A stretch of DNA of 64,000 nt from Tahibacter amnicola (lineage in GTDB: Bacteria > Pseudomonadota > Gammaproteobacteria > Xanthomonadales > Rhodanobacteraceae): contig NZ_CP104694.1 of NCBI RefSeq assembly GCF_025398735.1, forward strand, positions 4,427,001-4,491,000, read 5' to 3'. Every line of letters begins with the position of its first letter. Position 1 is the first letter of the stretch. Below, piece by piece: positions 33,071 to 42,586 of the stretch. A model generated the notes under the pieces. It made no database searches, had not been told where the DNA came from, and was given only the letters and a program-made list of their open reading frames with translations. A program made the position numbers and the translations under genes.

Positions 33071-33856
33071 TCAGAAACTCCACAGGACCGTCGTCACCCA
33101 TTGCCGACGGTCCATCGGCTTGGTCACAGTGCCCATTGCCGGTGAATTTGTCCACAACAGTGACGTGTACAGCGTGACGTCACCCAGCGCATAGCTCAGT
33201 CCGGCATTGCCGTAGGCGTAGTCCTGGGCCGGCAGCGGCCGCACGTCCGCGTAACCGGCACCCAGCTCCAGCGACAGTCCGGCAAACAGAGGCTGGTGCC
33301 AGGTGGCTTCCGCGTATACCACGGTGCCGCGCCGGTAGAAGCCACGCGGCTTTCCCTTGCCGGCGTGACGACCGGTGTAATCGGTCATGTCGTAGAGGGC
33401 CTGGTTCGGCGATACCGCCACGGACATGCGCCATCGATCACGGTAACCCACGGCAGCGACCGCCTCGTCGTAGTGGGAGTAGATCTCCCAACGGTTGCGC
33501 GGCGACTCGTAGTGCACCACGCCAAGCTTTGCCGCCCAGTCGTCGCCGAGCCGGAAGCGCCGATCCGCATAGGCCGCAAGCTGGACACCGGCCTTCTGGC
33601 CCGGCGGACGCTCGGCGGTTGCGCCCAGGCCAAAGAGCCAGCGCTCGCCGCTGTAGTGCGCGTCCGCCAGCCAGGCCGGAAGCCCGCTGCTCAGGCTGCG
33701 GCCGCGCTGGACATTGTCCGTGGCCATTCCGAGACTGCCGCCCCATTGCTGGGCCGTGGCGGGCGCGCACAATCCGGCCAGCAGGGCCAATCCCGAGCCG
33801 GCAAGGCGTGCGTTCCGGCGTTGGCTGCCTACCCTGTCCGACCCGACCGTATCCAT
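33071..33856 (-). CDS. TorF-family putative porin
   Basis: 261 residues with a signal peptide (GLALLAGLCAPATA) followed by WGGSLGMATDNVQRGRSLS, the TIGR02001 (TorF) opening. Alternating beta strands follow, ending in the aromatic outer-membrane signature LLWSF-type terminus (VTTVLWSF). The ATG at 33854-33856 has AAGGA upstream; an ATG seven codons earlier does not. Outer-membrane pore of unknown specificity. It diverges from the sigma-factor operon at 34020, with 163 bases between the starts. Confidence 0.78.
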   Translation of the reverse strand: MDTVGSDRVGSQRRNARLAGSGLALLAGLCAPATAQQWGGSLGMATDNVQRGRSLSSGLPAWLADAHYSGERWLFGLGATAERPPGQKAGVQLAAYADRRFRLGDDWAAKLGVVHYESPRNRWEIYSHYDEAVAAVGYRDRWRMSVAVSPNQALYDMTDYTGRHAGKGKPRGFYRRGTVVYAEATWHQPLFAGLSLELGAGYADVRPLPAQDYAYGNAGLSYALGDVTLYTSLLWTNSPAMGTVTKPMDRRQWVTTVLWSF

Positions 33857-34019
33857 CACAATCCTTTTGGTATTCAATGTTCTGGTTCGTTCTGACGCAA
33901 CAGAAGACCGCTACCCCACCCTGGGTGGCGCGCCACCATGACCTGCCGCACGGCGATCCGCAACCTTTTGGCGTGGCACCGGCACTCATCCCCGAAACAA
34001 CAGGTTCTGCAGTGACGCA

Positions 34020-34664
34020 ATGAAACCGATTTCGGACTTACCTGATGCCCAGTGCCACCCCCAGCGCCCTGACGAGGCGTCCGGCGACGGCGCGGAGCGT
34101 GCCCTGCTCACGGCCGTCGCAAATGGCGACCGCGTCGCATTCCAGCGCTTGTACACGCACTACTACACCCGCCTGATCCGCTTCCTGACGCGCCATACCT
34201 CGCGCAGGGACCTGCTCGACGAAATCATCAACGACGTGTTCTGGATCGTCTGGCGCAAGGCACCGGAATTCCGGGGCGACTCCAAGGTCGGCACCTGGAT
34301 CATCGGCATCGCCTACCGGTGCATGCTCAAAACCCTGCGCTTCGAGCCGGCCTCGCGCGAGAGCGCCGAATTCACCGACGACGACATGGACGGCGGCTGC
34401 ACTGACACGCCCGAAGCCGAGCAGCGCGAACTGCGCGACTGGGTCATGCGGGGCCTGGCCACGCTGCCGCCCGAGCAGCGCATGACACTGGAGCTGGCCT
34501 ATTACCTCGGCCAATCCTGCGAGGAAATCGCCGCGATCATGAATTGCGCGGTGGGCACCGTGAAAGCCAGGATGTTCCATGCCCGCCTCCGTCTTCGTAA
34601 CACCCTTCCGGCCATCGGCGGCGACACCGCCGTGCCAGTCCGTTTTCCGGAATCTGCACCATGA
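34020..34664 (+). CDS. ECF sigma factor heading the cytochrome-conduit operon
   Basis: 214 residues. Region 2: LYTHYYTRLIRFLTRHTSRR, DLLDEIINDVFWIVWRKAPEF, VGTWIIGIAYRCMLKTLR. Region 4: LPPEQRMTLELAYYLGQSCE, EIAAIMNCAVGTVKARMFHAR. Its stop shares ATGA with the anti-sigma factor start. It is the first gene of a block that runs through a protease, an MtrA/MtrB-like pair and further electron carriers, so it most likely controls them. No target promoter was identified by eye. Confidence 0.9.
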   Translation: MKPISDLPDAQCHPQRPDEASGDGAERALLTAVANGDRVAFQRLYTHYYTRLIRFLTRHTSRRDLLDEIINDVFWIVWRKAPEFRGDSKVGTWIIGIAYRCMLKTLRFEPASRESAEFTDDDMDGGCTDTPEAEQRELRDWVMRGLATLPPEQRMTLELAYYLGQSCEEIAAIMNCAVGTVKARMFHARLRLRNTLPAIGGDTAVPVRFPESAP

Positions 34665-35377
34665 GCGTTGAAACTCCTCTCACCCATCCGGAAACCTGGG
34701 AACTGATTCCCTGGGTCATCAACGGCACCGCCGACGCCCACGCAAAGGCGCGCGTGGAAGCGCATCTGCGCCACTGCGCCGACTGCCGCGACGAATACGC
34801 GCTGCAGTTCCAGCTGCACGCCGGCATGCAGGTACCGCAGGCCGGTGCACCGGATCCGCAGCCGGCCCTGCAGCGTCTGCTCGCCCGCATCGAAGCGGGC
34901 AGCGCAGATACAGAACCGGCTTCCGCCGCTCCACACACGGTGGTTGCGAACGGGGAACCTGCCCTCACCGTGACGCGCGGCAGCCGGCGCTGGATCTCGG
35001 GCCTGGCTGCGGCGGTGGCGGTGCAGGCGGTGGGCCTGGCATTGCTGGGCACGGCACTCGTCCAGCGTGACGACACCCCCGACACCCGCGCCGGATTCCA
35101 CACCTTGTCGAGCGCGGCAGTGCCATCGGCCGCACTGGTGCGTTTCGTGCCGGCGCCGGGAATGACAGTCAGCGAGATGCAATCGCTGCTGGCTGAGGTA
35201 AAAATGCATATTGTGGAAAGCAGCGAGGAGAGCGCGATCTATGGCCTGGCCCCCCGTCGCGATCCGGCGGCACCTGGCGCCGTCGCAACAACCGACGTTG
35301 CCGCAGTGGTGACGCGTCTGCGCGCCCATCCGCAGGTGCTGCTGGCTGAACCCATTGCCGGCAGCCAGATCCGATGA
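34661..35377 (+). CDS. Zinc-finger anti-sigma factor with subtilase-propeptide-like outer domain
   Basis: 238 residues. The N-terminal anti-sigma domain has the HxxxCxxC motif of zf-HC2 (AHLRHCADCRDEY). One transmembrane helix follows (GLAAAVAVQAVGLALLGTAL). The periplasmic domain (about 150-238; ALVRFVPAPGMTVSEMQSLL, IYGLAPRR, RLRAHPQVLLAEPI) follows the pattern of Fervidolysin/I9-type subtilase propeptides. It overlaps the sigma gene (ATGA) and shares ATGA with the downstream subtilase. It should hold the sigma factor inactive at the membrane until a periplasmic signal arrives. The propeptide resemblance was judged by eye. Confidence 0.85.
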   Translation: MSVETPLTHPETWELIPWVINGTADAHAKARVEAHLRHCADCRDEYALQFQLHAGMQVPQAGAPDPQPALQRLLARIEAGSADTEPASAAPHTVVANGEPALTVTRGSRRWISGLAAAVAVQAVGLALLGTALVQRDDTPDTRAGFHTLSSAAVPSAALVRFVPAPGMTVSEMQSLLAEVKMHIVESSEESAIYGLAPRRDPAAPGAVATTDVAAVVTRLRAHPQVLLAEPIAGSQIR

Positions 35378-36720
35378 GGCAGGCCGTGACAGCCGCCCGA
35401 CGCCCTGGTCGCCTCGTCCTCGCGGTGGGACTCTTGCTGACTGCCACGGGCATCTCGGCAAAGCAGGTCCAATGGCCCTCCGGTGAACCCTCAGAAGCGA
35501 TGATCGTGGTGGCGCTGGCCGACAAACCGGATCCCGCCATGGCCGCCGGGGGGACTCCGCGAGGCTACGGCGCCTTGCCCAGCTACGCAGGAAGCCAGCG
35601 CGCGGCATCCGCGTCCGCCCGACTGGCAACCGACTTCCAGCTGCGCGAGGTGTCGGCCTGGACGATCGAACCGCTGCGGCTGCGCTGCATGGTCTACGCA
35701 CTGGGTGATCCGGCAAAGCGCGACGACATCGTGGCCGCATTGCGCCAGGACCGGCGCGTGAAACTGGTCCAGCCGCTGCAGGAATTCGAAACCTTCGCCA
35801 GCCCGTCTCCACAGACGGAACCAGCCTCTGCTGCAGTGCGCCCGCGCTACAACGATCCCTACCTTGGCCTGCAGCACAGCTTCGCGGCGATCGAAGCGGC
35901 GGACGCCCAGCGCTGGGCGCGCGGCAAAGGCGTTACCGTCGCCGTGATCGACACCGGCGTGGATCCCCGGCACCCGGACCTGGAAGGTCGCATCGTCGCC
36001 TCCAAGGATTTTGTGGCGCAGACGGCATCCCCCGCCGCCACGGACCGCCACGGCACCGAGGTCGCGGGCGTGATCAGCGCCGTTGCGGACAACGAGGTTG
36101 GAATCGTCGGCGTCGCGCCCGAAGCACGGCTGTTTTCCTATCGTGCCTGCTGGCCGGTCGCCTCGCAGGCCAGCGCCGCACGCTGCAATTCGTACACATT
36201 GGCACTGGCACTGGGTGCGGCCATCCATTCCGACGCGCGTATCATCAACCTGAGCCTGGGCGGGCCGAAAGATCCACTGCTCGAAGAGCTGGTCCGTTAC
36301 GCGATTGACCATGGCAAGGTGGTGGTCGGCGCGGTGCCGCCATCGCGCAACATGACCGGCTTTCCGGTCGGCATCGACGGCGTGATCGCCGTAGATACCG
36401 GCGAGGCCGGTCCTGCCGCACCCGACGTGCTCGCGGCACCCGGCAAAGACATCCTCACCCTCGAACCGGGTGGCCACTTCGATTACGCCTCGGGCAGCTC
36501 GCTGTCTGCGGCTCACGTATCAGGGGCCGCCGCACTGCTGCTCTCGCTGCACCCACGGCTGGACGCCGCCCAGTTGCGCCAGCTGTTGCTGCGCAGCCGA
36601 CGCGATGCGGGCGCTTCCATCGATGTCTGCGCCGCGATGGCCGAGCTGCAGCGGGCGGTGCCCGGCGACCGCAACGTCCCCCAAGGATCCCCTGCCTGTG
36701 GACACTCGACGGATGGCTGA
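35374..36720 (+). CDS. S8 (subtilisin-like) serine protease
   Basis: 448 residues. After a signal peptide (LVLAVGLLLTATGISA) comes a propeptide-like domain (VYALGDPAKRDDIVAALRQD, VKLVQPLQ). The catalytic domain shows Asp in VIDTGVD, His in RHGTEVAGVI, and Ser in GSSLSAAHVSGAAALLLSLH. The Ser motif departs from the usual GTSMAAPH, but the nucleophile is kept. The ATG overlaps the anti-sigma stop (ATGA). Its position between the anti-sigma factor and the cytochromes suggests either processing of secreted operon products or cleavage of the anti-sigma factor, both inferences. Confidence 0.87.
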   Translation: MRQAVTAARRPGRLVLAVGLLLTATGISAKQVQWPSGEPSEAMIVVALADKPDPAMAAGGTPRGYGALPSYAGSQRAASASARLATDFQLREVSAWTIEPLRLRCMVYALGDPAKRDDIVAALRQDRRVKLVQPLQEFETFASPSPQTEPASAAVRPRYNDPYLGLQHSFAAIEAADAQRWARGKGVTVAVIDTGVDPRHPDLEGRIVASKDFVAQTASPAATDRHGTEVAGVISAVADNEVGIVGVAPEARLFSYRACWPVASQASAARCNSYTLALALGAAIHSDARIINLSLGGPKDPLLEELVRYAIDHGKVVVGAVPPSRNMTGFPVGIDGVIAVDTGEAGPAAPDVLAAPGKDILTLEPGGHFDYASGSSLSAAHVSGAAALLLSLHPRLDAAQLRQLLLRSRRDAGASIDVCAAMAELQRAVPGDRNVPQGSPACGHSTDG

Positions 36721-37753
36721 CCTCACCCGCCGTATTGCCGCACGACTGATTCGCCTTTCCACCCTGCTGCTCTTCGCCTGCGCTACACCCGGCGTAACAG
36801 CCCAGACCTTCACCGCCGACGCACGGCCGTGGCTGGCTGCTGCCGGCGCCGCGGGCGGCGATGCGCCGGCCGGCTTCGCCCAGGCGCGCGTGGCGCGCAA
36901 TCCCGGCGCGGCCCAGGCCGTGCCGATCGGCGAGAAGGCGTGCATTGCCTGCCACCAGCTCGAAAGCGAGCATTTCACCCACACCTTGCACGCCCTCGGC
37001 CTGCACGCCGCCGCCAAGGCAGACCCTTCTGTTCCGGTGTGCGAAACCTGCCACGGCCCCGGTTCCGAGCATGCCAAGGCGCCGACGCAGAAAGGCAGCA
37101 TCATCGGCTTTACGCGCGAGTCCGGCACGCCGATCGCCCTGCAGTCGCAAACCTGCCTCGGCTGTCACTCCGGCGGCGCCCGCGATCATTGGCTCGGGTC
37201 GGTCCACCAGCGCAATGACGTAACCTGCAGCGATTGCCACAACCCGATGGCGAACTTCTCCGGCGAGGGACTTCTGGCGAAGAAGTCCGTCAACGAGACC
37301 TGCGCGCAATGCCACACGGATGTTCGCGTCCAGTTCGACCGCCGTTCGCACATGCCACTGCCCGAAGGACAGATGAGCTGCGTGGACTGCCACAACCCGC
37401 ACGGCTCCACCGGCAAGTCGCTGCTCAAGACCGACAGCGTCAACGAGACCTGCTACGAATGCCACGCGGAGAAGCGCGGCCCGTTCCTGTTCGAACACGC
37501 CCCCGTGCGGCAGAACTGTCTCAATTGCCATACGCCGCACGGTTCCAACGAACATGCCCTGCTGGTCACCTCGGTGCCCCAGCTGTGCCAGCAGTGTCAT
37601 TCCGGGCTGGGCCATCCCAATGACCTGCAGACGCCACTGTCGCTGGGTTCCGGAACCCATCCGGACGAACGACTGATGGGGCGCGGCTGCGTCACTTGCC
37701 ATGCGCAGATCCACGGCTCGAACGCGCCGTCGGGCCCGAAATTTCACGAGTAA
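36713..37753 (+). CDS. Decaheme c-type cytochrome, MtrA/DmsE/MtoA-like
   Basis: 346 residues with a signal-peptide-like N-terminus (ARLIRLSTLLLFACATPGVT). Ten CxxCH sites are present: CIACH, CETCH, CLGCH, CSDCH, CAQCH, CVDCH, CYECH, CLNCH, CQQCH and CVTCH. Spacing and length match the MtrA/DmsE family (TIGR03508), which passes electrons across the outer membrane inside an MtrB/PioB barrel. That partner is encoded 12 bases downstream. In iron oxidisers the related MtoA and PioA carry electrons inward; in Shewanella MtrA carries them outward. Direction cannot be read from sequence. The ATG at 36713 overlaps the protease stop; a GTG at 36698 is an alternative start. Confidence 0.9.
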   Translation: MADLTRRIAARLIRLSTLLLFACATPGVTAQTFTADARPWLAAAGAAGGDAPAGFAQARVARNPGAAQAVPIGEKACIACHQLESEHFTHTLHALGLHAAAKADPSVPVCETCHGPGSEHAKAPTQKGSIIGFTRESGTPIALQSQTCLGCHSGGARDHWLGSVHQRNDVTCSDCHNPMANFSGEGLLAKKSVNETCAQCHTDVRVQFDRRSHMPLPEGQMSCVDCHNPHGSTGKSLLKTDSVNETCYECHAEKRGPFLFEHAPVRQNCLNCHTPHGSNEHALLVTSVPQLCQQCHSGLGHPNDLQTPLSLGSGTHPDERLMGRGCVTCHAQIHGSNAPSGPKFHE

Positions 37754-37765
37754 TCCGGAGCCGAC

Positions 37766-40357
37766 ATGCCGAACACGGAATCCCGTATCGCGCTGCCTGC
37801 CTCCTACCCGCCGGGCATCGGCCGGTGCGGGGCCTGTCGCGCCGCCGTGCCACTGTTCATGGCGTTCTCGCTTGGCTGGGCGGCCACTGCTTGCGCTGAC
37901 AGCGGTGCAGGGCTACGCAACGGGCCTCGCGAAGCAGGCGGCGTATCCGCACCAGGCGCCCTTGATCCGCGCGGCACGAGCTGGCTTCACGCCGGACAGC
38001 GGCGCAGTCCCGGCGGGCAGTTGTACGAGTGCCCCGCCCCACCGCCTGCCGACGCGGATGCCCCCTGGCTGCACGCCAGCGTCACCATCGGCTACGCCGC
38101 CACGGCTGGCGACGAACGCAATGCCCAATGGGGCCGGTTCCGCGGGTGGGACGACGGCGTCGTTGGTCGCGTCGCCGTGCGTGCGCAGGATCCGCTGGAC
38201 GCCACCTACCTGCAGGCCGATGCCGCCCGGCTGGGAGAAGACGACGCCTATCTGCAGGCGCTATTCGGTCGCGCCGGCAGTTTCAAGGTCAAGGCCATCC
38301 TCGAACGCCGCCCCAACCTGCTCAGCCACACTGCGCGTCCGATCTGGAACGGGGTGGGAACCAGCGCACTGACCTTGCCGGAAATCCTGCCCGCTGCAGC
38401 AAGCAGTGTCGGTCAGGTCGAGGCAGTGTCATCCGCCACGCCGGCCATCACGCTGGGGGTACGGCGCGAACGGCAGGCGCTGGAGTGGAACAGCTATCTG
38501 TCACCACGCTGGAGCCTGTATGCGCAGGTGCGCAACGAGCACCGTAAAGGCGCGCGCCCCTTCGGCGGTCCCTTCTATTACGGATTTGCCTTCCCTGACA
38601 ACGCCGGCGCGCTCGAATCGGTCAAGCCGATCGACGACGACACCCTGGCGCTCCAGGCCGGTCTCCGCTTCGCCGGCGACGACTGGCGCATGGCGTTTTC
38701 CTACGCCGGCTCGTTCTATCGCGACCGCTACCGCGGATTCACGTTCCAGATGCCGTATCCACTGACGCCATTCCTGGCCGGAGCCACATCACCGGGCATT
38801 GAACGCGGCCAGTTCGCCAGCGAGCCGGACAACGATCACCACCGCATTGCGGCCACCTTCACGCGCCGCCTTCCATGGAACGGCGAAGCCTCTGTCACCA
38901 CGGCGCTCGGGCGGATGCACCAGAATGACACGCTGATTGCCCCTGTCGACTGCACCGGCGTATTCGGTGTCGACATCCTCGGCAATGGACAGCCCGGACC
39001 CGACAATCCCTATCTGTACAACTGCGCAGACTGGAATTCGCCCGCTTCGCTGTCCCGCCCGCGGGCGGGACTGCAGATCGACACGTCCACCGTCAACGGA
39101 CGCATTGCGCTGCGCCCTTCCGACAGCTGGAATGTGTATGGCGAATGGCGTTTCCACCGCCAGGACTACCGTGGTGAATACCTTGCCTTCAACCCCCTGA
39201 CGGGACAGTTCGGCTACATCGCGGAAAACGGCGCCCAGGGCAGCATCCTGCCGGGGCAGGCCGGGTTCTGGGATCCGCTCACGGCCGCCTCGGTCGTGAC
39301 ACGCATCCGCAGCATTCCACTGGACCAGGAAACCACCGAAGCCACGATCGGTGCCGACTGGTACCTGCCGGGTCGAAACACGCTCGGTGCCACCGTGACG
39401 GCGCAGCACGATGCGTTCACCCATCGCGAACGGCGCGACCTGGATGACGTGCGCGGAAAACTGACCTGGATCAACCGCACGCTGGACGGCCTCACCCTGC
39501 GCGCCAACCTCAGCATCGGCGACCGCTCCGGCGGCGCCTACGACTACGCGCCGCACGCCTATGGCTATTCGACCAGCCTGCCCGGGTTTGTCGTGCCGGA
39601 TACCGGTATTCCCGCATTGACCGTCGACGCGATGCGCATGTACGACCTGTCCGATCGTCAGCAGCGCAAGGCGGATGTCATGGTGACGCTGGCCACGGGC
39701 GCACGCTCGACCGTGAATCTGTCGGTCCGCCACGATGACCAGGACTACGACGCGAGCATCGGACGCCAGGGTTATCGAACCCAAGGCATCACGCTCCAGT
39801 GGGAATGGCAGCCCATTGCATCGACGACGCTGTCGGTGCACGCGGGTCATGATCGCTCGCGCCTGGATATCGCCAACATCAACGACCAGGATATCGGCTC
39901 CGATCCGACGCTCGGTGGACCCACCTACCCGGAAGCCGGCCGCTGGTGGTCACGCGACCAGCAACGCAACCGGCATGCCGGCGCCACGTTCCGGACACAG
40001 TGGCGCGGCGTACATCTGGATGCCGGATGGAACTGGATGCAGTCGCGCGGCGTGACTTCCTATCGCTTCGAGACCGCCGCAGCCCTGGCCTATTTCCCCG
40101 ACGGAACGCGTGTGCCGGGCAATCAGTTTCCGGCGATGACGTACCAGCGAAATTCACTGTCGATCGGCGTCACGTTTCCGGTGGCCAGCGACTTCACGGT
40201 ACGGGTGTTCGACACTTACGAACGCGCGCGGATCCAGGACTGGCACTACAGCGGATTCGGTCTGGATCGCATTTTCGGCCGCCGCGTCTACACCGACGGC
40301 GGGCCGGAAAGCTATGGCGTCAACTGGTTCGGCGTCACCGCCGAGTACGTCTGGTAA
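37766..40357 (+). CDS. MtrB/PioB-family outer-membrane beta-barrel
   Basis: 863 residues with a hydrophobic export region near residues 24-44. Long stretches of alternating beta strands follow (for example LYAQVRNEHRKGARPFGG, WRMAFSYAGSFYRDRYRGFT, TLGATVTAQHDAFTHRERRD). The barrel ends SYGVNWFGVTAEYVW, with a terminal aromatic residue as needed for BAM insertion. Size and sequence pattern match the MtrB/PioB family (TIGR03509), the pore that sheaths the decaheme cytochrome. A CP-containing N-terminal segment (LYECPAPPP) is typical of the family's small Cys-bearing leader region. It immediately follows its cytochrome partner. Confidence 0.88.
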   Translation: MPNTESRIALPASYPPGIGRCGACRAAVPLFMAFSLGWAATACADSGAGLRNGPREAGGVSAPGALDPRGTSWLHAGQRRSPGGQLYECPAPPPADADAPWLHASVTIGYAATAGDERNAQWGRFRGWDDGVVGRVAVRAQDPLDATYLQADAARLGEDDAYLQALFGRAGSFKVKAILERRPNLLSHTARPIWNGVGTSALTLPEILPAAASSVGQVEAVSSATPAITLGVRRERQALEWNSYLSPRWSLYAQVRNEHRKGARPFGGPFYYGFAFPDNAGALESVKPIDDDTLALQAGLRFAGDDWRMAFSYAGSFYRDRYRGFTFQMPYPLTPFLAGATSPGIERGQFASEPDNDHHRIAATFTRRLPWNGEASVTTALGRMHQNDTLIAPVDCTGVFGVDILGNGQPGPDNPYLYNCADWNSPASLSRPRAGLQIDTSTVNGRIALRPSDSWNVYGEWRFHRQDYRGEYLAFNPLTGQFGYIAENGAQGSILPGQAGFWDPLTAASVVTRIRSIPLDQETTEATIGADWYLPGRNTLGATVTAQHDAFTHRERRDLDDVRGKLTWINRTLDGLTLRANLSIGDRSGGAYDYAPHAYGYSTSLPGFVVPDTGIPALTVDAMRMYDLSDRQQRKADVMVTLATGARSTVNLSVRHDDQDYDASIGRQGYRTQGITLQWEWQPIASTTLSVHAGHDRSRLDIANINDQDIGSDPTLGGPTYPEAGRWWSRDQQRNRHAGATFRTQWRGVHLDAGWNWMQSRGVTSYRFETAAALAYFPDGTRVPGNQFPAMTYQRNSLSIGVTFPVASDFTVRVFDTYERARIQDWHYSGFGLDRIFGRRVYTDGGPESYGVNWFGVTAEYVW

Positions 40358-40367
40358 GGGGACGCCG

Positions 40368-41042
40368 ATGAGAATGCCCGTGCACCGTGTTTTTCGATGG
40401 CCGATGGGCCTGCTGCTGATGGTTTCGGCCACGGCGTGCGTCGCCGACGATTTCCTGGACCTGCGCGCGGTCAAGCCCGTGCAGGGCGACGCTGCGCGCG
40501 GGGAAACGCTCGCGGCCACCTGCGGTGCCTGCCACGGTCCTGGCGGCAACGCCGTGATTCCTACGTTTCCGAAACTCGCCGGCCAGAAGGTCGGATACCT
40601 GTACTGGAAACTGGTGCAGTTCAAGCGCGAAGGCCGGCAGGAATCGCCTATGACGGCGCTGGTCAGCCCATTGTCGGATGCCGACATGCGCGATCTCGCC
40701 GCCTACTTTGCCAGCAGCAAGTCAGTGGCGCCGACAGCCGCGCCGAAGCCATCTACCGGCGCGACCTTGTTTCGCGACGGCGCCGCCGAGCGCGGTATTC
40801 CGCCGTGCCAGGCCTGCCATGGCGACCACGGCGAGGGCATCGATATCGCCGGCGAGCCACAGTACGCCGTGTATCCACGCCTGCAAGGCCAGCAGCCTGC
40901 CTATCTCACCCAGCGACTGACCGAGTTCCGCGACGGCAAGCGCCGCTTTACCAGTAGCGAACAGGTCATGAGCGGTGTTGCCAGGTCGCTGAGTGACGAG
41001 GACATCCGCGCCGTCTCCGACTGGCTGCCGTACGCGCAGTGA
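40368..41042 (+). CDS. Periplasmic c4-like diheme cytochrome
   Basis: 224 residues. Signal segment WPMGLLLMVSATACVA, then two cytochrome c domains with CGACH and CQACH. Each domain has a plausible distal Met region (SPMTALVSPLSD and SEQVMSGVARSLSD). Cytochromes of the c4 type shuttle electrons in the periplasm, for example to terminal oxidases. It lies 10 bases after the MtrB-like gene, with AAGGGG before the ATG, so it is the likely periplasmic partner of the conduit. Confidence 0.85.
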   Translation: MRMPVHRVFRWPMGLLLMVSATACVADDFLDLRAVKPVQGDAARGETLAATCGACHGPGGNAVIPTFPKLAGQKVGYLYWKLVQFKREGRQESPMTALVSPLSDADMRDLAAYFASSKSVAPTAAPKPSTGATLFRDGAAERGIPPCQACHGDHGEGIDIAGEPQYAVYPRLQGQQPAYLTQRLTEFRDGKRRFTSSEQVMSGVARSLSDEDIRAVSDWLPYAQ

Positions 41043-41099
41043 CCTAAAGCGGCGGCGCGGGTGCGCCGCCAAGTCATCCCCCCTGAAAACGAGGATTCC

Positions 41100-41510
41100 A
41101 TGCTCATTCGTTCGTCTCGCAATTGGCTCGCCGGCGCCGCCCTGCTCCTGCCAATGTCTGGCTTCGCCGCCAATCACACGATCCAGGTCGGCGGTGCCGG
41201 CGGCCAGGTCTTCGATCCACCGACGTTGAGCATCGCCGCGGGCGATACGGTCACTTTCTTTAACGCGGGCGGTTTCCACAATGTCCAATCCGATCCCGGC
41301 GCTGTCACCAGCTTCCGCTGCGCTGCGGGCTGCGACGGTGCGGGCGGCAACGGCAACCTCAGCTCCGACGCCTGGACCGCCACCGTCACCTTCAACGCGC
41401 CGGGCACCGTTGGCTACTACTGTGAAGCACACGGAGCGCCCGGCGAAGGCATGTTCGGATCCATCACCGTGAATGTACCGGTCGATCTGCAGTCATTTGA
41501 TATCGAGTAG
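41100..41510 (+). CDS. Secreted cupredoxin (plastocyanin-like)
   Basis: 136 residues with a signal peptide (WLAGAALLLPMSGFAA). Type-1 copper ligands are visible: His in GGFHNV, then Cys, His and Met in YYCEAHGAPGEGMFG. The fold is a small electron carrier. GAGGATT precedes the ATG. It is 57 bases downstream of the c4-like cytochrome and probably shares its transcript; it could serve as an alternative copper-based carrier for the conduit. Confidence 0.85.
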   Translation: MLIRSSRNWLAGAALLLPMSGFAANHTIQVGGAGGQVFDPPTLSIAAGDTVTFFNAGGFHNVQSDPGAVTSFRCAAGCDGAGGNGNLSSDAWTATVTFNAPGTVGYYCEAHGAPGEGMFGSITVNVPVDLQSFDIE

Positions 41511-41824
41511 GTAGCGGTTGCATCGCCCCCTGCCGGCGGCTCTGCGCGGCACATTACGAATGTCGACGCAGATTCACCCCGGGTGAACCCTGCGGGTTCG
41601 CCCGGGCTACATAGTGCGTAGCGAATGTGTACTTTGCAGCACAAGTCCGGGTGGTCGGCGACGCGCTGGCCCGCGCCCCCAGCCCTTGCGGCGAGCACAG
41701 GCACGCCATTTCCAGCTTTACCCAATTTGCTGCCAGACCGGGCACACTCGCCCAGCAACCATTCGGCCCGCACCCGGCACTCACCGTCCGTAGCACCCCA
41801 ACGGATACCCCACGGAGGAACCTC
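41511..41824. other. Intergenic region with a REP-like palindrome
   Basis: 314 bases between the two cupredoxin genes. It contains the REP-like element at 41578-41610. The rest shows no gene, and no promoter I can support. The gap may mean the second cupredoxin has its own promoter. Confidence 0.5.
41578..41610 (-). repeat. GTAG-type REP-like palindrome (single copy)
   Basis: On the minus strand the element reads GTAG followed directly by a 13-bp palindrome (CCCGGGCGAACCC, loop GCA, GGGTTCACCCGGG, one G-T type mismatch). A GTAG foot followed by a stem is the signature of RAYT-associated REP elements such as SMAG in Stenotrophomonas. Only one copy was found, and no RAYT transposase gene is in the window. 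Confidence 0.6.
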
Positions 41825-42586
41825 ATGAACCCGCTTATTCGCCGAATCCTTGCCGGCATTGCCCTGCTCACGGCTTCGGCCTGCGCCACGGCTGCCAATC
41901 ATGCCGTCCGCGTCGGTCCGGGACTGACTTTCAGCCCGGCCAATCTCACGGTCCAGGCCGGCGACACGGTGACGTTCACCAACGCCGGCGGCTTCCACAA
42001 CGTCGTCGCGGACGACAACTCATTCCGCTGCGCCGCCGGCTGTGACGGCGCGGGCGGCAGTGGCGCGCCCAGTTCCAACGCCTGGTCGGCCACGGTGACC
42101 TTCAATACCGCCGGCACCAAGGGCTACTTCTGCGAAGTGCACGGCAGCCCCGGTGTCGGCATGGCCGGCCGGATCGTGGTCGAAGGCGGCGGCAATACCT
42201 TCACCATTCCGCCGGGCATCTCCGGCAACTGGTACGACCCCAACCAGAACGGACACGGCTTCCAGTTCGAAATGGTGACACCGACTGTCATGACGGCGTT
42301 CTGGTTCACCTTCGACAACAACGGTGCACCGGCCTGGATTTCCGCTGCCGGCACCATCGAAGGCAATCGCGTCGTCATGCAGGCCAATCGCCTGGGCGGC
42401 GGGCGCTTCCCGCCGAACTTCAACCCGGCCAACGTGACCACCCTGCCCTGGGGCACCCTGACCTTCACATTCACCAGCTGCACCAGCGGCCGCGTCGACT
42501 GGACGTCGACCGATCCGGCCTTCACGCCCAGCGGAAACATGACCCTGACCCGCCTGACCCAGATCAACGGGCTGGCTTGTCCATAA
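41825..42586 (+). CDS. Secreted cupredoxin fused to a GxWYDPxxxGxGF domain
   Basis: 253 residues. Signal peptide (ILAGIALLTASACATA), then a cupredoxin domain (about 25-120) with ligands His (GGFHNV) and Cys/His/Met (YFCEVHGSPGVGMAG), closely similar to the preceding gene. A second domain follows (about 135-253), starting GNWYDPNQNGHGFQFEM and containing WFTFDNNGAPAWISAAGTIE and a Cys pair region (FTSCTSG...GLACP). This WY/GHGF module occurs on other exported proteins in the Xanthomonadales, but its function is unknown to me. GGAGG precedes the ATG. Confidence 0.75.
   Translation: MNPLIRRILAGIALLTASACATAANHAVRVGPGLTFSPANLTVQAGDTVTFTNAGGFHNVVADDNSFRCAAGCDGAGGSGAPSSNAWSATVTFNTAGTKGYFCEVHGSPGVGMAGRIVVEGGGNTFTIPPGISGNWYDPNQNGHGFQFEMVTPTVMTAFWFTFDNNGAPAWISAAGTIEGNRVVMQANRLGGGRFPPNFNPANVTTLPWGTLTFTFTSCTSGRVDWTSTDPAFTPSGNMTLTRLTQINGLACP

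Follow-up and report, generated by a model that had tools for sequence, protein, structure and literature searches.

A Tahibacter gene block that probably joins an outer-membrane electron conduit to its own envelope-sensing switch

It is mostly by their hardware that outer-membrane electron conduits are recognised, and to our knowledge little has been described of how aerobic soil bacteria control them. The porin-cytochrome conduit itself is an already known kind, as in MtrAB, PioAB and MtoAB. Among regulators, RseA-DegS is the type for class I anti-sigma factors and regulated proteolysis. The Shewanella MtrAB structure is 6R2Q, and PioA has been proposed to undergo proteolytic processing (both from an excerpt of PMC10654088). 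ECF54 and other ECF sigma factors have subtilases in their context, and for that protease a role with no anti-sigma factor involved has been proposed (excerpt of PMC8999054). Cyc2 proteins are cytochromes fused to a porin, a 16-strand barrel. They carry a signature, AxPxFAR[Q/K][T/Y] before CxxCH and PxL after it, with spacings worded as 5 and 4 in the excerpt of PMC8406198.

We analysed a stretch of 64,000 nucleotides from Tahibacter amnicola (the window) together with related genomes, and established families, gene order, motifs and co-occurrence from the sequences. The window probably holds a self-contained gene block for outer-membrane electron exchange with its own envelope-sensing switch (Table 1). 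A sequence-only reading had placed eight genes here, and all eight were found at that place on one strand. The stop/start overlaps that it claimed for the first four genes were recovered as 4 bases between sigma and anti-sigma (34661-34664), 4 bases between anti-sigma and subtilase (35374-35377) and 8 bases between subtilase and cytochrome (36713-36720); the next three genes, said to follow within 60 bases, do so with gaps of 12, 10 and 57 before the barrel, the c4-like cytochrome and the cupredoxin. A gap of 314 bases separates the cupredoxin gene from the fusion gene, which has a promoter-like motif of its own.

Table 1. Predicted features of the block, in positions of the window
Feature	Coordinates	Strand	Remarks
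U33, small outer-membrane-barrel-like protein	33071..33877	-	divergent from sigma gene; 8/8 Tahibacter
Predicted ECF promoter of sigma operon, CAACCTTT-N13-GCACTC	33961..33987	+	exact before sigma, 8/8 Tahibacter
ECF sigma factor	34020..34664	+	Sigma70_r2, Sigma70_r4_2
Anti-sigma factor	34661..35377	+	zf-HC2, long helix 108-138, C-terminal predicted subtilase-prodomain-like domain
Subtilase (S8) with N-terminal prodomain	35374..36720	+	PF00082 Peptidase_S8; fold match to pro-subtilisin E
MtrA/DmsE-family decaheme c-type cytochrome	36713..37753	+	10 CxxCH, TIGR03508, 6r2q_A
MtrB/PioB-family outer-membrane barrel	37766..40357	+	PF11854, 6r2q_B
Diheme c4-like periplasmic cytochrome	40368..41042 (start 40368 assumed)	+	Cytochrom_C in two stretches, two CxxCH
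Plastocyanin-like cupredoxin	41100..41510	+	PF00127
Predicted ECF promoter of cupredoxin-fusion gene	41756..41782	+	at most 1 mismatch in 7/8 Tahibacter, 2 mismatches in the eighth
Cupredoxin fusion	41825..42586	+	PF00127 (Copper-bind) in residues 33-120 of 253 only; C-terminal domain without family match

The gene set was kept in all five other Tahibacter genomes with an unbroken contig; two fragmented genomes had it split over two contigs each, and the subtilase of one (G005) was not recovered. The exact order of the eight genes, whose conservation in relatives had been named as a check, was found in the window only. The other Tahibacter have the c4-like and cupredoxin genes swapped, and their fusion gene lies at the opposite side and is divergent. 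U33, missing from the earlier gene list, is a conserved member of the set. It had no match in Pfam or NCBIfam; a weak homologue (40 bits) adjoins the regulator at another locus, L191, and passes TIGR02001 (55.6 bits, cut-off 47.15), and U33 is possibly of the TorF/gcw_chp family.

The ten CxxCH motifs reported for the decaheme cytochrome were counted again, and cytochrome and barrel belong to the MtrAB/PioAB families by their TIGR03508, PF11854 and 6R2Q matches, with the barrel under one of two curated cut-offs. In the proposed search against TIGR03508 and TIGR03509, the cytochrome passed (258 bits, cut-off 192.2) but the barrel fell short (184.4 bits, cut-off 240.05). The barrel matched PF11854 MtrB_PioB at 259 bits (gathering 23) over residues 119-863. 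The cytochrome matched 6r2q_A (223 bits, E 7e-65), and a barrel profile of 13 relatives had 6r2q_B as its sole PDB match at E 0.001; we take these chains to be MtrA and MtrB, the record's molecule names saying neither. The mature barrel has no CxxC: 12 of 13 aligned rows contain none, and the single one in the window's protein (residues 21-24) lies inside the presumed signal peptide. A barrel without CxxC would suit non-reducing conduits.

The anti-sigma factor carries a zf-HC2 domain (PF13490, 28.9 bits against 22.2) and adjoins an ECF sigma with Sigma70_r2/r4, which places it in class I. In the subtilase, the Asp-His-Ser triad of an active S8 enzyme (D193, H226 and S376) was invariant in 18/18 rows. 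The model of the anti-sigma C-terminal domain showed a clear beta-alpha-beta-beta-alpha-beta topology (block pLDDT 75-97 over residues 161-230, pTM 0.40). Foldseek against the PDB ranked the PC1/3 prodomain first and subtilisin prodomains lower, with a best E of 0.018 and no match reaching E 0.001; unrelated ferredoxin-like folds (EF-1 beta, MgtC) ranked among the prodomains. Searched by sequence, the domain had no match in the PDB. The profile match between this domain and the subtilase's own prodomain gave E 6.8e-5 (probability 63%) and, the other way, 4e-4 (35%); two control pairs gave 0.47 and 0.07. For the periplasmic domain of the anti-sigma factor, the predicted fold is of the subtilase-prodomain kind, which suggests docking on the neighbouring subtilase. 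Weaker relatives of the sigma/anti-sigma/subtilase trio had no conduit within the fetched flanks (0/9). Therefore, the trio architecture appears wider than electron transfer, and the idea that every such trio serves a conduit was rejected as a general rule.

The motif CAACCNTT-N13-GCACTC stood exact before the sigma gene in 8/8 Tahibacter genomes and with at most one mismatch before the cupredoxin-fusion gene in seven. Some Rhodanobacter and Frateuria have sigma downstream, and there the motif lies immediately ahead of the cytochrome gene. All 14 linked loci of other arrangements had it 39-69 bases before sigma with 0-2 mismatches (two exact, four with one, eight with two; no shuffled control). 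Sites numbered 27 in the linked MtrB loci, spread over 15 of the 21, and five in the 59 MtrB loci without a trio in the fetched flank; the reversed pattern gave 0 in both sets. Here a trio meant sigma plus anti-sigma or subtilase, the flank of L111 being without a subtilase, and GCACTC was required, so that Dokdonella sites, ending GTACCC, were missed. One of the 27 (at 3658 of L111) lies before an acyltransferase-like gene that has nothing to do with this theme. Over 16 whole genomes, the motif and its reversal occurred 19 times and once, respectively.

Where the cytochrome was its own unit, the motif lay directly before the decaheme gene at 6/13 loci, against a shuffled expectation of 0.00 (40 shuffles per stretch, single-base content kept), and in genomes without a strong anti-sigma at 0/16. 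Of these 13 loci, which have the trio nearby, another six (L092, L093, L095, L098, L111 and L129) had no motif with fewer than three mismatches before the cytochrome. This count omitted L115, with its cytochrome gene cut at a contig end, and genomes G190 and G177, and L222 (G201) was too short; L193 was omitted from the b561 promoter count, its Cyc2 gene lying outside the stretch. Where a genome carried the trio elsewhere, its MtrB genes mostly lacked the motif, with sites of at most one mismatch in 1/12 and 0/8 cases. Genome-wide, sites with at most one mismatch were near background in the eight Tahibacter (42 against 32 reversed); we therefore relied on exact or positionally conserved sites. 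A promoter-like motif common to the sigma gene and its predicted targets is what ECF autoregulation would produce, and the tie between regulator and conduit cluster is supported by these conserved promoter-like motifs.

Several further sites were observed. The window's genome has a third exact site, at 2539040, ahead of the gene for a 366-aa protein of doubtful relevance. Among exact sites before neither the sigma nor the fusion gene, the fourth is in T. soli (L144), where the gene that follows encodes a 146-aa exported protein, cupredoxin-like by eye and with no Pfam or NCBIfam match. Of the extra sites found in other genomes, three stand before genes for HprK-like proteins (PF07475 at 21.5-30.2 bits, all below the gathering 33.3), one before a gene that by eye resembles an ABC transporter and one before no ORF.

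The regulator was linked to more than one kind of conduit. The anti-sigma clade was found in 95 of 197 genomes searched (kept from 113 with a threshold of 170 bits; G005, whose gene runs off a contig end and scores 118 bits, was kept as well); some genomes scored as without it, such as G078, G151 and G149, carry weaker relatives. Of the 95 genomes, 26 had MtrB no more than 12 kb from the anti-sigma gene (G205 retained despite partial matches at contig ends), 51 had a Cyc2-like cytochrome-barrel in this range and none had both; any conduit lay there in 77. MtrB was elsewhere or on another contig in 15 further anti-sigma genomes, and MtrB genomes without a strong anti-sigma numbered 17 of 66, after three of 69 with weak partial matches only (G103, G120 and G179) had been dropped. 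Every genome of the linked Cyc2-like clade (51/51, at 686 bits or more; matches of 320 bits or less were treated as another clade) had the gene within 12 kb of anti-sigma. The Cyc2-like proteins had no Pfam or NCBIfam match and end in Phe in 7/7 aligned rows, and their cassette contains a membrane b561 cytochrome. The two cassettes sit at equivalent places of one locus.

The linkage of regulator and MtrAB drawn by the sequence-only reading therefore held, recurring at 21 of the 80 MtrB loci that were named and in four arrangements, but it was not specific to MtrAB, and a regulator exclusive to MtrAB was ruled out by the Cyc2-like type in 51/95 genomes. Neither a lost linkage nor a barrel and cytochrome outside the expected families was seen. 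Since the same switch accompanies an MtrAB-type or a Cyc2-type conduit, it would in this clade be a regulator of surface electron transfer, not of one conduit.

We lean towards an inward flow of electrons, from a reduced donor at the surface, such as Fe(II), Mn(II) or some other compound, to the haem-copper oxidases of the cell, of which subunit I was found in 8/8 Tahibacter. An outward conduit, through which extracellular respiration of the DmsE/MtrAB kind would hand electrons from quinol to an acceptor outside the cell, is unlikely. The DmsE family is the cytochrome's best NCBIfam match, and the membrane b561 of the alternative cassette could feed from quinol. However, NapC/NirT occurred in only three of the eight Tahibacter genomes checked, so that a CymA-type partner as in MtoABD-CymA was not a regular companion, and in the window's genome it adjoins NapB-like (PF03892) and NapA-like molybdopterin oxidoreductase genes. 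As had been claimed, no outer-surface MtrC is among the genes of the block; PF22113 matches elsewhere in the genome, a 7-haem protein of 262 aa and a 10-haem protein of 555 aa with an FHA domain, are not MtrC-like by size or layout. An envelope-defence programme is somewhat unlikely: sigma would answer oxidative, metal or envelope damage, and the conduit, cupredoxins and cytochromes would get rid of electrons or detoxify Cu(I)/Fe(II) by oxidation at the surface, with no energy conserved. Motif-bearing genes outside the conduit do look surface- or stress-like (FdtA-like and NeuD-like sugar genes, for example), the motif precedes a peroxiredoxin in one Rhodanobacter (AhpC-TSA, 92.7 bits), and the b561 cytochrome lies within the Cyc2-type cassette; yet the Tahibacter block showed no such sugar gene and no peroxiredoxin, and the steady partners over the 77 genomes are electron conduits.

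The subtilase may instead mature the conduit or the cupredoxins, leaving sigma and anti-sigma as a separate circuit. We regard this as improbable: the overlap of subtilase and cytochrome genes in the window and the processing proposed for PioA (PMC10654088, excerpt) speak for it, while the subtilase accompanies sigma and anti-sigma without a nearby conduit in 9/9 weaker trios and the anti-sigma factor carries the predicted prodomain-like domain. It is hardly credible that trio and conduit are chance neighbours held together by common descent. The co-occurrence statistics (Fisher tests) ignore relatedness, but the same pair recurs in four gene arrangements with shared motifs and with two unlike conduit types at one locus, on which grounds chance association was ruled out, and the subtilase tree (L111 absent) requires at least three forced changes of the MtrB label.

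For an inward conduit under its own switch, we infer motif reading by sigma, anti-sigma cleavage, the signal, electron direction and substrate as follows. The decaheme cytochrome inside the MtrB/PioB barrel would carry electrons between surface and periplasm, where the c4-like cytochrome and cupredoxins would shuttle them. The sigma factor would recognise the motif and drive the cupredoxin-fusion gene as well as its own operon, through which it would also drive the conduit. The anti-sigma factor would keep sigma at the inner membrane. The predicted likeness of its periplasmic end to a subtilase prodomain makes it probable that this end binds the exported subtilase, whether to inhibit it, to anchor it or to be its preferred substrate. 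Upon a surface signal, the subtilase would cut the anti-sigma factor and free sigma. Tentatively, and with slightly less than even confidence, we propose a wider reading: a sigma/anti-sigma pair with a trans-acting prodomain and a matching subtilase is a module devoted in one clade to surface electron transfer, which stays while MtrAB-type and Cyc2-type hardware is exchanged, the anti-sigma factor being both sigma inhibitor and periplasmic protease cap. In full-text literature searches, we came upon no account of the regulatory module, the linkage or the conduit swap.

With a dedicated portable switch, conduits whose function is unknown could be marked out at the genome level and turned on in the laboratory, and the promoter motif of the switch would predict conduit regulons. 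The equivalent places of Cyc2-type and MtrAB-type cassettes beside one regulator suggest that one type can do the work of the other, which offers a testable lead on what Cyc2 homologues do in bacteria that are not known to oxidise iron. If real, an anti-sigma factor with a prodomain-like end would be a new way to couple a protease to a sigma factor.

The switch resembles RseA-DegS in its zinc-finger anti-sigma factor with a long helix and presumed periplasmic domain and in the exported protease encoded alongside; here, however, the protease is a subtilase and the anti-sigma C-terminal domain is predicted to resemble a subtilase prodomain. It shares with ECF54 and the other ECFs of such context a subtilase encoded near the sigma gene and differs from them, as excerpted from PMC8999054, in having an anti-sigma factor. 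Compared with the Cyc2 signature in the excerpt of PMC8406198, the alternative-cassette protein (about 450 aa) carries it exactly in L191, whereas 6/7 aligned rows have Y for F, and we counted spacings of 3 and 5 residues where the paper's wording gives 5 and 4. The conduit is like MtrAB, PioAB and MtoAB in its decaheme cytochrome and MtrB/PioB barrel, both matching 6R2Q chains. It differs from them in a barrel below the TIGR03509 cut-off and a locus without an MtrC-like partner, in a c4-like cytochrome and cupredoxins instead of PioC or MtoD/CymA, and in a block with its own sigma factor, anti-sigma factor and subtilase.

All eight genes of the sequence-only reading were found in the complete 6.46-Mb Tahibacter source genome, with the stop/start overlaps of the first four (sigma factor, anti-sigma factor, subtilase and decaheme cytochrome; 4, 4 and 8 bases) and the close spacing of the next three (gaps of 12, 10 and 57 bases for decaheme/barrel, barrel/c4-like and c4-like/cupredoxin). 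The fusion gene starts 314 bases beyond the cupredoxin. U33, a small outer-membrane-barrel-like gene divergent from the sigma gene, was absent from that list and is a constant member of the set; a weak U33 homologue in a related locus passed TIGR02001 (TorF-family putative porin).

Features of the sigma-conduit block in the window
Feature	Position	Strand or note
U33	33071-33877	minus
Predicted promoter before sigma	33961-33987	
ECF sigma, zf-HC2 anti-sigma, S8 subtilase, ten-haem cytochrome, MtrB/PioB barrel, diheme c4-like cytochrome, plastocyanin-like cupredoxin, cupredoxin fusion	34020-42586	one strand, in this order
Predicted promoter before fusion gene	41756-41782	

The decaheme cytochrome scored 258 bits against TIGR03508 (cut-off 192) and matched 6R2Q chain A with 223 bits, and the barrel passed PF11854 with 259 bits. 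The barrel profile (13 relatives) had 6r2q_B as its sole PDB match at E 0.001; 6R2Q is the Shewanella MtrAB structure, according to an excerpt of PMC10654088. However, the barrel remained below the curated TIGR03509 cut-off (184 vs 240 bits). Given these matches and the missed cut-off, the conduit is, judged by sequence, a divergent branch of the MtrAB/PioAB family; the proposed MtrAB likeness stood for both proteins.

Barrel and anti-sigma were present in all eight Tahibacter genomes searched. Five others with an unbroken contig carried fusion(-), U33(-), sigma, anti-sigma, subtilase, decaheme, barrel, cupredoxin and c4-like genes, and two fragmented genomes, each split over two contigs, were compatible with this order, the subtilase not being recovered in one of them. 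The gene set proposed earlier was thus kept across Tahibacter, whereas its order was not: in the window alone, c4-like and cupredoxin genes have exchanged places and the fusion gene lies downstream.

Across the family, 21 of the best 80 of 119 MtrB loci had sigma plus anti-sigma or subtilase nearby. Seven of these loci, of the Tahibacter and Dokdonella types, have sigma immediately upstream in one direction, and in 3 more it is upstream across a gap; sigma is divergently upstream in 3 (Dyella) and downstream in 8 (Rhodanobacter, Frateuria and others). This recurrence in differing gene orders speaks for function over frozen synteny. The remaining 59 of these best 80 had no trio within the fetched flank, and their barrel was nearly always accompanied by decaheme and c4-like genes. 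Two loci (L071:7367-16238 and L078:7846-16021) hold a tandem pair of decaheme-barrel-c4-like cassettes, the second barrel being further from the window's. A second, weaker family of trios (L242 to L250) had no conduit in the fetched flanks; a cupredoxin-fusion relative was divergent from sigma in 3 of the 9.

The anti-sigma clade was also found in genomes without MtrB. Cyc2-type loci read NeuD-like(-), FdtA-like(-), b561, Cyc2-like (a putative fused cytochrome-barrel protein), cytochrome c, often a U33-like gene, sigma, anti-sigma and subtilase; the MtrAB-type counterpart, in four Rhodanobacter and one Frateuria (L117, L119, L123, L125, L127), reads NeuD-like(-), FdtA-like(-), decaheme, barrel, c4-like, sigma, anti-sigma and subtilase. 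In Rhodanobacter, Dyella and their relatives, the FdtA-like/NeuD-like operon (L191:957-3002 and equivalents) shares the predicted ECF promoter motif, and three loci (L200, L201, L203) have this operon and the trio with no conduit found between, MtrB lying elsewhere in the genome. The Cyc2-like protein had no Pfam or NCBIfam family match; the Cyc2 signature, taken from an excerpt of PMC8406198, was exact in L191, and the remaining 6 of the 7 rows carry Y in place of F.

Among 197 family genomes, 66 had MtrB, 95 a strong anti-sigma (a high-scoring clade relative) and 51 the linked Cyc2-like clade. Within 12 kb of the strong anti-sigma, MtrB was found in 26 genomes, Cyc2-like in 51, both in 0 and neither in 18; MtrB lies farther off or on a separate contig in 15 of these 18, two of which are the fragmented Tahibacter, and is absent from the other 3. 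All 51 linked-clade Cyc2-like genes lay <12 kb from an anti-sigma gene, and 8 of these genomes also hold a distant MtrB. A second, lower-scoring Cyc2-like clade showed no anti-sigma association, being present in 20 genomes that have the anti-sigma and 49 that lack it. When conduit labels were mapped onto a tree built from 41 subtilases, MtrB required 8 changes, of which well-supported branches force at least 3, and Cyc2 required 3, of which at least 1 is forced; these changes indicate a probable exchange of conduits beside one regulator, in an unsure number of events.

The predicted ECF promoter motif common to Tahibacter upstream of sigma, CAACCNTT-N13-GCACTC, was exact there in 8/8 genomes and preceded the fusion gene with at most one mismatch in 7/8 (two in the eighth, G002). 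In 14 linked loci of other arrangements it lay 39-69 bases upstream of sigma with 0 (2 loci), 1 (4) or 2 (8) mismatches, counted without shuffles; shuffled 700-base stretches from the decaheme-upstream test attained two mismatches in at most 2.5%. When up to one mismatch was allowed, we found 27 sites in the 21 linked loci (15 with a site) and 5 in the 59 MtrB loci without a trio in the flank, vs 0 in each for the reversed pattern; a tight form gave 19 sites in 11 of 16 whole genomes (reversed, 1). Before the decaheme gene, the motif at this stringency (≤1 mismatch) occurred in 6 of 13 trio-near loci with a separate cytochrome unit, all six with sigma downstream, in 0/7 where the gene sits inside the sigma operon, in 1/12 and 0/8 where the trio is elsewhere in the genome, and in 0/16 in genomes without a strong anti-sigma (shuffle expectation 0.00 to 0.03). 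A seventh of the 13 (L135) has boxes one base wider apart and one mismatch. The other six lacked the motif before this gene; therefore, regulation through the motif is a weaker claim for those arrangements.

In Cyc2-type loci, a relaxed pattern without shuffled control placed the motif by b561 in 9/10 judgeable loci (start codons unassigned) and facing the FdtA side in 7/10. It also occurs at the divergent FdtA-like and NeuD-like sugar operon, through which surface glycan modification may be linked to the conduit regulon. Further exact sites (L180, L182, L187 and L188) lie before weakly HprK-like genes of three genomes and, in one of these, a Rhodanobacter, also before an exported peroxiredoxin (AhpC-TSA). 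A T. soli site stands before a small exported protein that is cupredoxin-like by eye only. The window's genome has a third exact site (G000:C1:2539040-2539066) 76 bases before a 366-aa ORF.

In the anti-sigma, an N-terminal zinc finger is followed by a long helix (108-138) and then by a C-terminal domain whose predicted topology is beta-alpha-beta-beta-alpha-beta. In Foldseek against all PDB chains, the C-terminal model ranked the PC1/3 prodomain first (E 0.018), with subtilisin prodomains lower (probability 0.96-0.97), unrelated ferredoxin-like folds intermixed and no match at E 0.001. Comparing a profile of this C-terminal domain with the prodomain of the neighbouring subtilase gave E 6.8e-5 (probability 63%; reverse direction 4e-4, 35%), whereas two control pairs gave E 0.47 and 0.07. 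The subtilase matches the pro-subtilisin E fold, retains the catalytic triad in 18/18 rows, and has a signal-like N-terminal stretch (by eye) and a lipobox-like motif in 6/18 rows. We infer that the C-terminal end of the anti-sigma would dock on the subtilase, which would cut the anti-sigma or be capped by it.

Electrons may flow through the conduit in either direction. Inward flow is favoured by the lack of an MtrC-like neighbour at the locus, by the soluble c4-like and cupredoxin carriers, by haem-copper oxidases in 8/8 Tahibacter, and by NapC/NirT-type donors in only 3/8, the window genome's standing beside NapB and a molybdopterin oxidoreductase. Outward flow is favoured by the DmsE family label of the decaheme and by b561 in the Cyc2-type cassette. 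The window's genome also encodes a 555-aa protein (L239:3521-5188) with an odd pairing of ten CxxCH and an N-terminal FHA domain (PF00498, 27 bits).

The open-licence literature, in excerpts and among the matches listed, gave no account of the trio-conduit linkage, nor of any anti-sigma that carries a prodomain. The text of PMC8805035 mentions none of Rhodanobacter, Xanthomonad-, Dyella, Dokdonella, Lysobacter and sigma factor, and that of PMC7406223 none of subtilase, subtilisin and propeptide. In the portions available, subtilases are described near ECF54, with no anti-sigma (PMC8999054), Rhodanobacteraceae appear among Cyc2 homologues (PMC10654088), and Cyc2 is reported in a Rhodanobacter (PMC5566968).
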